64,000 nucleotides of DNA from Planctomycetota bacterium (GTDB lineage Bacteria > Planctomycetota > Phycisphaerae > Phycisphaerales > SM1A02): positions 1 through 64,000 of the forward strand of contig JAPLMU010000126.1 in NCBI GenBank assembly GCA_026386795.1, given 5' to 3'. Below the pieces are notes generated by a model. It did not search any database, was not told where the DNA came from, and saw only the letters and a list, made by a program, of their open reading frames with translations. A program made the position numbers and the translations under genes. Shown one piece after another: positions 3,819 to 7,122 of this stretch (position 1 is the stretch's first letter; every line of letters starts with the position of its first letter).

Positions 3819-4775
3819 ATGACGCCTGATTCCGCCAATCCCCGTGAACGGTGGCTGAGTTGGCTCGGCACGCTTGGCGATCTCGCGCGCTTGCGCACGC
3901 TTCGGCTTCTTGAGCGCGAAGAGCTCGGCGTTGGCGAACTTGCGCGTGCATTGCAACTGCCGCAGAGCACGGTGAGTCGCCACCTGAAGCCGCTCTTTGA
4001 GCAGGGCTGGGTCGACAAGCGCACCGAAGGAACGCAGAGCCTCTATCGAATGACACCGGCAGCGCTTGCAACCGACATGCGCGATCTGTGGCGCATGAGC
4101 CGTGAACACTTAGGCAGCGCTGCTTCGTTTGAAGAAGACGATGCGCGCCTTGCGGAAGTGATTGCGGCGCGCCGCGTAGATAGTCGCACATTCTTTGGAC
4201 GCATCGGCGGCGACTGGGATGAGTTGCGCCGCGAATTGTTCGGTGATGCATTTGTGTGTGAGGCATTGCTGGGATTGCTTCCTCCCGACGCAGTAGCGGT
4301 CGACTTTGGTTGCGGCACTGGCGAAGCAGCAGAGAGGCTCGCGCCGGTGGTTGGTCGCGTGATTGCGATTGATCGTGAGCCAGCCATGCTTACGGCTGCG
4401 CGCAAGCGACTCAAGCGATTTGCGAATGTGGAATTTCGGCAGGGCGATTTGCTCGCGCCGCCACTCGCCGCAGGCGAAGCTGATATCGGCATCGTCATGC
4501 TCGTCTTTCATCATGTGGACGATCCCGCTGCGATGTTGCGCGCTCTTGCGCCCGGATTTCGCACGGGCGGGGCGCTCTTGGTGGTTGACATGGCGAGCCA
4601 TGATCGATCCGGTTACCAACAGACCATGGGCCACCGCCACCTTGGCTTTTCTGAGCAGGATTTGCAAGGTTTCGCCCGTGGCAGCGGTTTCGCACTGCGC
4701 CGTCATACGCGCTTGCGTCCGGACACCAGCGGTAAGGGTCCCGGATTGTTTGCAGCGCTCTTTGTTCGTGGATGA
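3819..4775 (+). CDS. ArsR-family HTH + SAM-dependent methyltransferase-like domain regulator (SahR-like)
   Basis: N-terminal winged HTH (LARALQLPQSTVSRHLKPLFEQGWV), C-terminal class I MTase motif I (VAVDFGCGTGEAAERLA); near ahcY. Confidence 0.85.
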   Translation: MTPDSANPRERWLSWLGTLGDLARLRTLRLLEREELGVGELARALQLPQSTVSRHLKPLFEQGWVDKRTEGTQSLYRMTPAALATDMRDLWRMSREHLGSAASFEEDDARLAEVIAARRVDSRTFFGRIGGDWDELRRELFGDAFVCEALLGLLPPDAVAVDFGCGTGEAAERLAPVVGRVIAIDREPAMLTAARKRLKRFANVEFRQGDLLAPPLAAGEADIGIVMLVFHHVDDPAAMLRALAPGFRTGGALLVVDMASHDRSGYQQTMGHRHLGFSEQDLQGFARGSGFALRRHTRLRPDTSGKGPGLFAALFVRG

Positions 4776-4844: not shown

Positions 4845-5435
4845 TCACTTTGATCCCGCGTCCAGCCACGCAGCAATGATCTTTGATTGCTTGTCCTTCT
4901 TAAGCGCACGGAACTGGTTTGCGTCAGCAACTGTTGCAAATCCAATCACCTTTCCATCCCATGTCACCGGCGCCGCTTGAGCGGTCAGTGTTTCGCCAGT
5001 GAGCGGGCACATCGCATTGTGGATTCCTTTCTGCGGCAGCACTTGTGCGGCGCCCAACTTGTTGCGCTTTGCGCGCGGTAGTGCAGCAAACTGTGCCGCA
5101 TCAGCCGCCGAGTTGAATCGAATTTGCCACTGTCCGTAATAGCCAACATGGCCAGGTCCAACCACGGGCTCCTGCGTGATCGGGTCGATGCACTCGGGTT
5201 CGATCTTTGCTGCTGTTGCTGCTTGCGCGGCAGGGCGATCGATAACATCCGCACCCGTGGTCTTCTCGCCGCTGCCACTTGATGGTCTGATTGAAGGGTT
5301 GTCCACCACGTCGGAACTGTTCGCCGCAGCGCTTCCATCGTTCGGTGGCGCCTGGTACAGGTCGGCCTTGTTCGAGGCGCAGGCGACGAGTGTCGTGGCA
5401 ACAATGAACCCTGCAAGCGGCGCGGTGATCTTCAT
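4845..5435 (-). CDS. Lipoprotein with YHS-like segments
   Basis: Signal peptide and TLVAC lipobox from internal Met (MKITAPLAG); CPLTGETL and [10 protein letters not shown] segments resemble YHS domains. Confidence 0.55.
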
Positions 5436-5509: not shown

Positions 5510-5538
5510 TTGCCCAATGGGCTCCTGTGCGCTACAAT
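5510..5538 (+). promoter_or_regulatory. Predicted sigma70-type promoter of ahcY (TTGCCC-17 bp-TACAAT)
   Basis: -35 TTGCCC at 5510-5515, 17-nt spacer, -10 TACAAT at 5533-5538, 70 nt upstream of the ATG. Confidence 0.65.
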
Positions 5539-5564
5539 CATCCTTTCATCCGGATGAACGGATG
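5539..5564. promoter_or_regulatory. 26-bp near-perfect inverted repeat, candidate SahR-type operator
   Basis: CATCCtTTCATCCGGATGAAcGGATG; one symmetric mismatch pair; core TTCATCCGGATGAA is a perfect palindrome; directly downstream of the -10 box. Confidence 0.65.
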
Positions 5565-5607
5565 GATAGTCCTCTGGTTCGTCGGAAACACTCTTAACGG
5601 AGCCCCC

Positions 5608-7122
5608 ATGCCTGCTACTGCCACCGCTACCACTACCGCCGCCAACCCGTTCCTCACCAATTCGCGCCTCTCCCTCACGGAGTTCCTGCCTTTCAAGGTG
5701 AAGGACATGTCCGCTGAGACCGTTCGCTTCGGTCGCAAAGAGATCGAACTCGCCGAGATCGAGATGCCGGGCCTCATGGCCTTGCGCGCTGAGTACAAGG
5801 GCAAGAACCCGCTCAAGGGTGCACGCATCATCGGCAGTCTGCACATGACCATTCAGACCGCGGTCCTCATTGAGACCTTGGTTGAGCTCGGCGCTGAAGT
5901 GCGTTGGTGCAGTTGCAACATCTTCAGTACGCAGGACCACGCTGCCGCCGCTGTCGCTGTTGGTCCAAACGGTACCCCTGAGAAGCCAACCGGTATCCCG
6001 GTCTTCGCATGGAAGGGCGAGTCGCTCGATGAGTACTGGTGGTGCACTTGGCAGGCGCTGCACTTTGCAGATGGCAAGGGACCGAACATGATCCTCGATG
6101 ACGGTGGCGACGCCACGCTCCTCATCCACAAGGGTCTTGCCTTTGAGAAGCTCGGATCCGTGCCAACCGCCACCACTGAGGACAGTGAGGAATACACCGT
6201 CATTCTGCAGCTCCTCACCGCGCTGCAGCAGAAGCATGCTGGCTACTGGACCAAGACCGCGCCGAACGTGATTGGCGTGACTGAGGAAACCACCACCGGC
6301 GTGCATCGTCTGTACCAGATGCAGGAACTCGGCGAACTCCTCTTCCCAGCGATCAATGTCAACGACGCTGTCACCAAGAGCAAGTTTGACAACCTCTACG
6401 GTTGCCGTCACTCACTGGTTGACGGAATCATGCGCGCCACCGACGTCATGCTTGCCGGCAAGGTTGCCGTGGTCTTTGGATACGGCGACGTCGGCAAGGG
6501 TTCGTGCCAGAGCCTGCGTGGCCAAGGCTGCCGCGTGAAGGTCACGGAAATCGACCCAATTTGCGCGCTGCAGGCGTGCATGGAGGGCTACGAAGTCGTC
6601 ACCCTCGCCGATGCCGTTGCAACTGCTGACATCTTCATCACCGCCACCGGCAACAAGGACATCATCCGCGCCGAGGACATCCTGAAGATGAAGGACAAGG
6701 CGATCATTGGCAACATCGGTCACTTTGACAATGAGATTGATATGGCCGGCCTGAAGAAGACCCCTGGCACCAAGTGCGTCAACATCAAGCCACAGGTTGA
6801 TGAGTGGAAGCTTCCGAACGGCAAGAGCATCATTATGCTTGCCGAAGGACGTCTCTTGAACCTTGGCTGCGCTACTGGTCACCCAAGCTTCGTGATGAGT
6901 TCCAGCTTCTCCAATCAGGTGATTGCGCAGATTGAACTGTTCCTCAACCACAAGAAGTACGCGAAGCAGGTTTACACCTTGCCGAAGAAGCTTGATGAGA
7001 AGGTGGCGCGTCTGCACCTTGGGCAGCTGGGTGCCAAGCTCACCGAACTCCGCAAGGATCAGGCTGAGTACTTGGGCATTCCTGCCGACGGTCCGTACAA
7101 GCCAGACCACTACCGCTATTGA
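5608..7122 (+). CDS. ahcY: S-adenosylhomocysteine hydrolase
   Basis: Highly conserved AhcY motifs ([56 protein letters not shown]-terminal YKPDHYRY); internal start at 5608. Confidence 0.98.

Follow-up and report, generated by a model that had tools for sequence, protein, structure and literature searches.

A putative SahR-like ArsR-methyltransferase repressor and its palindromic operator at the ahcY promoter of a Planctomycetota bacterium

The effector domain of SahR is methylase-like, and S-adenosylhomocysteine (SAH) releases SahR from DNA. The regulon of this ArsR-family protein was reportedly described by Novichkov et al. in 2014, in Desulfovibrio and other Proteobacteria. In a reconstruction across Proteobacteria, SahR appears as an SAH-responsive regulator of sahR, ahcY, metH, metF and metK that recognises a 20-bp palindrome, and the consensus of gamma-SahR and SamR takes the form ATC-10nt-GAT (PMC4239095). 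SAH-dependent binding of SahR in Desulfovibrio is cited in PMC8877191, and PMC7950407 also belongs to the SahR literature. SamR of the Xanthomonadales, a distantly SahR-like ArsR protein that regulates methionine genes, has a 24-bp palindrome of the same ATC-10nt-GAT form; its regulon includes genes of methionine biosynthesis but not ahcY (PMC4239095), whereas ahcY is the main target at the locus described here. Two further systems invite comparison. The ArsRM protein of Brevundimonas sp. M20 is likewise an ArsR-methyltransferase fusion in a met operon and recognises a palindrome within the promoter of its own gene, but it is reported to methylate arsenite and its palindrome, CTTTATATAAAG, is unlike the operator found here (PMC10190100). 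The SAH riboswitch found upstream of ahcY (Rfam) shares the gene and the proposed signal, but is an RNA element.

The locus lies in a window of 64,000 nucleotides, by which we mean the whole stretch of DNA analysed (contig C134), from a genome of 2.79 Mb that is 87% complete. It comprises the following features.

3819-4775, plus strand: gene for a 318-aa protein with an ArsR-type HTH and a class I SAM-methyltransferase-like domain (Pfam HTH_5 and Methyltransf_11), the proposed SahR-like repressor by domain content and linkage.
4845-5435, minus strand: divergent lipoprotein-like gene between the regulator gene and ahcY; start probably at 5435, the longest ORF running from 5474.
5510-5515, plus strand: -35 hexamer TTGCCC of the ahcY promoter, by its sigma-70-like sequence pattern.
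5533-5538, plus strand: -10 hexamer TACAAT, ending one base before the inverted repeat.
5539-5564, plus strand: 26-bp inverted repeat CATCCTTTCATCCGGATGAACGGATG, the putative operator, by sequence and a score of 48 bits with the family matrix.
5540-5555, plus strand: less well conserved dyad ATCCTTTCATCCGGAT, overlapping that at 5548-5563 with an offset of 8 bp, by conservation across sites.
5548-5563, plus strand: most conserved dyad ATCCGGATGAACGGAT, ATC-N10-GAT, by conservation across sites and exact matches to ATCCGGATNNNCGGWT.
5545 (roughly 5544-5547), plus strand: predicted transcription start within the operator, placed from the position of the -10 hexamer.
5599-5602, plus strand: likely Shine-Dalgarno sequence GGAG, as read from the sequence.
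5608-7122, plus strand: ahcY, the controlled gene, encoding a 504-aa S-adenosylhomocysteine hydrolase (TIGR00936, 616 bits).

We propose that the inverted repeat is very probably the operator of a SahR-like repressor of the ArsR family, encoded at 3819-4775, which would block the ahcY promoter until SAH accumulates. The resemblance to SahR extends to the combination of an ArsR HTH with a SAM-methylase-like domain, the linkage to ahcY, a palindromic operator of about 20 bp, and a core set of targets that here comprises ahcY, metH and metK and in relatives also takes in metF, metK and the regulator gene. The operator, however, is built from ATCC/GGAT half-sites and does not match the SahR DNA motif, its one likeness to described sites being the ATC-10nt-GAT spacing seen in those of gamma-SahR and SamR; the recognition helix is of the PQST type rather than GQSR or SQPR; and the hosts are Planctomycetota and other phyla. 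In this genome no operator site stands before metF or before the regulator gene itself, so that the autoregulation typical of SahR is not seen. Since both the operator sequence and the recognition helix differ, and the effector is put forward only by analogy, we name the system a SahR-like variant and not SahR proper.

An earlier note on this DNA had described a promoter, TTGCCC-N17-TACAAT (5510-5538), directly abutting a 26-bp inverted repeat, and the sequence is as it claimed: the two hexamers are separated by a spacer of 17 nt, and both promoter and repeat lie upstream of the ahcY start codon, an ATG at 5608. This promoter is the sole sigma-70-like match between 5380 and 5700, where shuffled sequences would be expected to give 0.1. 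The 14-bp core of the repeat (5545-5558) is indeed a perfect palindrome and is unique in the window even when 2 mismatches are allowed, and a matrix scan of the window at an 8-bit cut-off found no second site beside the ahcY operator. The axis proposed for the repeat (5551/5552) stands in part: across 118 distinct sites it gives the best overall symmetry, but the most conserved base pairs belong to a second dyad, whose centre lies 4 bp further downstream. The operator can thus be described as a pair of ATC-N10-GAT dyads that overlap with a stagger of 8 bp, the downstream member being the more conserved. Five ahcY leaders of relatives (L094, L105, L107, L110 and L231) carry the operator with a short central deletion, for example CCATTCATCCGCTGAATGGATGAA, and the fusion gene alongside these deleted operators is apparently still intact. 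The lipoprotein-like gene at 4845-5435, which has no Pfam or NCBIfam match, shares with ahcY the intergenic region that holds the operator, and the operator may affect this divergent gene too.

The genome-wide distribution of the site, obtained by pattern searches with matrix scoring applied to individual loci, is confined to genes of the SAM cycle. The 20-bp core CCNTTCATCCGGATGAANGG occurs exactly twice in the genome, once before ahcY and once about 40 bp ahead of metH, against a chance expectation for extra exact copies of ~4e-5 (2.79e6/4^18). Relaxing the core to ATCCGGATNNNCGGWT brings in a single further exact match, about 40 bp upstream of the metK ATG, and the three sites score 48 (ahcY), 45 (metH) and 31 bits (metK). 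Their products catalyse SAH hydrolysis (AhcY), homocysteine remethylation (MetH) and SAM synthesis (MetK). Weaker hits on C24 and C36, inside dnaJ and inside another apparent coding stretch, with matrix scores of at most 4, were set aside as chance. The palindrome before ahcY is not a chance occurrence, and the genome-wide scan that the earlier note had called for thus returns the SAM-cycle genes ahcY, metH and metK only. That note had recognised the operator at ahcY, but not its second dyad, the regulator or the sites at metH and metK.

The phylogenetic footprinting of ahcY leaders that it had also suggested finds the palindrome conserved among relatives. A copy within 2 mismatches is present in 144 of the 201 genomes of the order, while a reversed control pattern gave only a handful, and the genes that follow the operator in relatives are ahcY, metH, metF, metK and the regulator gene. 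Searching by pattern favours loci that resemble the consensus, and our main arguments lean on loci chosen by protein; when ahcY leaders were picked by protein similarity alone, nearly all carried the operator, some as the centrally deleted variant. In families f2 and f6, in Pirellulaceae, and in Gemmatimonadota, Acidobacteriota and Myxococcota, the operator stands directly before the fusion gene or a fusion-ahcY operon, a position in which it is absent from the genus members examined. A matrix trained without those fusion loci gives at least 12 bits in 55 of the 79 loci versus none of 140 control stretches inside genes, and most of the loci that fall below 12 bits have no adjacent ahcY.

The same alignments bear on the possibility that the element works in RNA, as a riboswitch or attenuator hairpin, which we consider to be extremely improbable. 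Although the 22-nt stretch 5545-5566 taken alone folds as a hairpin (z = -4.0), the leader as a whole is no more stably folded than its shuffled versions (z = -0.5), and the left arm of the operator lies upstream of the predicted start. The only Rfam matches in the window are two tRNAs, with no SAH or SAM riboswitch among them, and across the 118 sites the pair frequencies lie near the expectation for independent columns, and so give no covariation of the RNA type. The operator, moreover, is found at variable distances before the different genes. A riboswitch or attenuator was therefore rejected on Rfam, covariation and leader folding, and the preference for a protein site expressed in the earlier note is borne out.

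The candidate for that protein is the ArsR-methyltransferase fusion, whose gene lies one gene upstream of ahcY. It is near-universal in the family: 137 of 151 genomes contain a strongly scoring copy. Of the 54 genomes in which a single contig carries this gene and ahcY, 49 have it on the ahcY strand, no more than 6 kb upstream. The protein is 97% identical to its homologue in Phycisphaerales bacterium UBA966 (Planctomycetota), the nearest named relative, and 36% identical over both domains to a Desulfovibrionaceae ArsR-methyltransferase that adjoins ahcY. Searches of NCBIfam returned a generic ArsR/SmtB model as the best match and no SahR model. A confident structural model (pLDDT 90) shows two domains, and the top match among solved folds is Rv2258c, solved with SAH, with an overall superposition that is weak because the domains are arranged differently. 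The ArsR-plus-methyltransferase layout is shared with the Brevundimonas ArsRM, which also sits in a met operon (PMC10190100), and it could be argued that the fusion is an arsenite-methylating regulator of that kind and its operator part of arsenic resistance. The recognised targets, however, are SAM-cycle genes, and the window protein has Cys147 and Cys165 as its only cysteines. Cys165 belongs to the SAM motif and does not vary across the alignment, and Cys147 is not conserved; As(III) cysteines besides the SAM motif, as used to define ArsRM, are absent from the window protein. We regard an arsenic role as barely credible.

The proposed pairing of protein and operator can be examined where the fusion gene has been lost. 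Three species of genus g12 (G066, G150 and G156, 93-98% complete) have no fusion gene, and their metH leaders score at the level of shuffled sequence (-15, -15 and -12, respectively), as do the ahcY leaders of G066 (-13) and G150 (-17); the ahcY leader of G156 is only 78 bp long. Siblings in g12 that retain the fusion have metH leaders of 31-39 bits and ahcY leaders of 20-36. The metH genes of G066 and G150 (L253, L254) are divergent and branch away from the other metH genes of g12, suggesting replacement of the gene together with loss of the regulator, so that for these two species only the ahcY comparison is strictly orthologous, and the lack of a metH site could stem from exchange of the gene instead of loss of the site. 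The ahcY tree is compatible with different numbers of losses in g12. In the less complete genomes G175, G201, G240 and G248 the sites are kept while the fusion gene was not found, which assembly gaps may explain; the genomes are mostly metagenome bins, so the absence of a gene from an incomplete one is weak evidence. The claim of the earlier note that a repressor operator lies at the ahcY promoter is thus supported by footprinting, by the site list and by co-loss with the candidate regulator, repression itself being inferred.

A further line of evidence comes from the recognition helix, which in the window protein reads LPQSTVSRHLK. PQST helices and close variants pair with ATCC/GGAT operators, whereas fusions with xQSR or SQPR helices (Thermodesulfobacteriota, Sumerlaeota, one planctomycete, Leptospira and rhizobia) have other palindromes or none recognisable, and all four xQSR-helix fusions are without a site of the ATCC/GGAT type. 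In the operator from Sumerlaeota, ATCAGCATATCATGATACGTTGAT, the ATC/GAT spacing is retained and ATCA stands where ATCC is found here. The palindromes before alpha-proteobacterial and Leptospira relatives (ACATAAACATATCTTTATGT, ATATCAAGATATCTTGATAT) differ from the operator here. At L199 and L208, 24-bp palindromes (ATCAGCATATCATGATACGTTGAT and ATCAGCGTGTTATGATGCGCTGAT) precede fusion-ahcY genes of the xQSR type, with an ATC/GAT spacing much as here. Fusions with an AQSS helix (L156, L169) pair with a variant palindrome, ATCGC...GCGAT, possibly as a third specificity class. In an annotated record of Leptospira interrogans (L292) the genes for the ArsR-methyltransferase, AhcY, a 4Fe-4S binding protein and MetH are consecutive, and a perfect 24-bp palindrome, GGATATCAAGATATCTTGATATCC, precedes the regulator gene. 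It is also conceivable, though we consider it doubtful, that two dimers of the repressor, or one tetramer, would occupy the two overlapping 16-bp dyads, allowing stepwise switching of the SAM cycle by SAH or the SAM:SAH ratio; whether the half-site is ATCC or ATCA would then depend on the minor difference between PQST and xQSR in the recognition helix.

This correspondence also weighs on whether the palindrome might be bound by an unrelated transcription factor, with the ArsR-methyltransferase gene a mere neighbour or further target. The lack of a site before the fusion gene of this genome would be in keeping with such a factor, but the fusion gene and the sites are lost together in genus g12, the site precedes the fusion gene in several phyla and the operator class tracks the recognition-helix class, so we judge it very unlikely. 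The pairing of the predicted regulator at 3819-4775 with the operator is well supported by these comparisons of sequence.

The direction of control and the nature of the signal can be approached through the placement of the promoter elements. Within 45 nt upstream of the operator, TTG[AC]C is found in 20 of 39 ahcY leaders and 42 of 54 regulator leaders, with ~8% expected. In leaders with recognisable boxes, these hold a constant position with respect to the operator: the -10 element mostly begins 7-11 bp before the 20-mer in ahcY leaders of relatives and overlaps its left edge in regulator-gene leaders. An operator on or just after the -10, as in these leaders, fits a repressor. A variant of our proposal keeps the operator and the ArsR-methyltransferase protein, but has the protein sense SAM or the SAM:SAH ratio, or act as an activator. 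It gains from the presence of metK and metH among the targets besides ahcY, from the suggestion that SamR, a distant SahR relative, senses SAM (PMC4239095), and from the methyltransferase-like fold, which could bind SAM or SAH, the structure of Rv2258c having been solved with SAH. Set against this, ahcY is a target throughout, the SamR regulon lacks SAM-cycle genes except metK (PMC4239095), and the position of the site argues against activation; we consider this variant unlikely. The effector of the fusion protein could nevertheless be SAM or another ligand. From the operator position and the SahR precedent we infer repression over activation, and by analogy SAH would be the effector; direct binding and the start site are likewise presumed.

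We propose the following mechanism for the SahR-like repressor. Its winged helix would bind the 26-bp element, covering the predicted start and the -10 edge, and the bound repressor would keep RNA polymerase off the ahcY promoter. Accumulating SAH would then occupy the methyltransferase-like C-terminal domain and the repressor would leave the DNA, so that ahcY, metH and metK would be expressed together, providing respectively for the hydrolysis of SAH, the conversion of homocysteine to methionine and that of methionine to SAM.

SAM-cycle control of the SAH type was previously described in Proteobacteria, and the open-access literature searched contains no SahR-type account in Planctomycetota or Gemmatimonadota. 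The putative operator and its recognition helix form a distinct class outside Proteobacteria, with no earlier report in that literature. The system offers a testable wiring of the SAM/SAH balance for Planctomycetota, Gemmatimonadota, Acidobacteriota and Myxococcota, for which that search found no SahR report, and the paired classes of operator and recognition helix make the DNA specificity of an ArsR subfamily directly testable.
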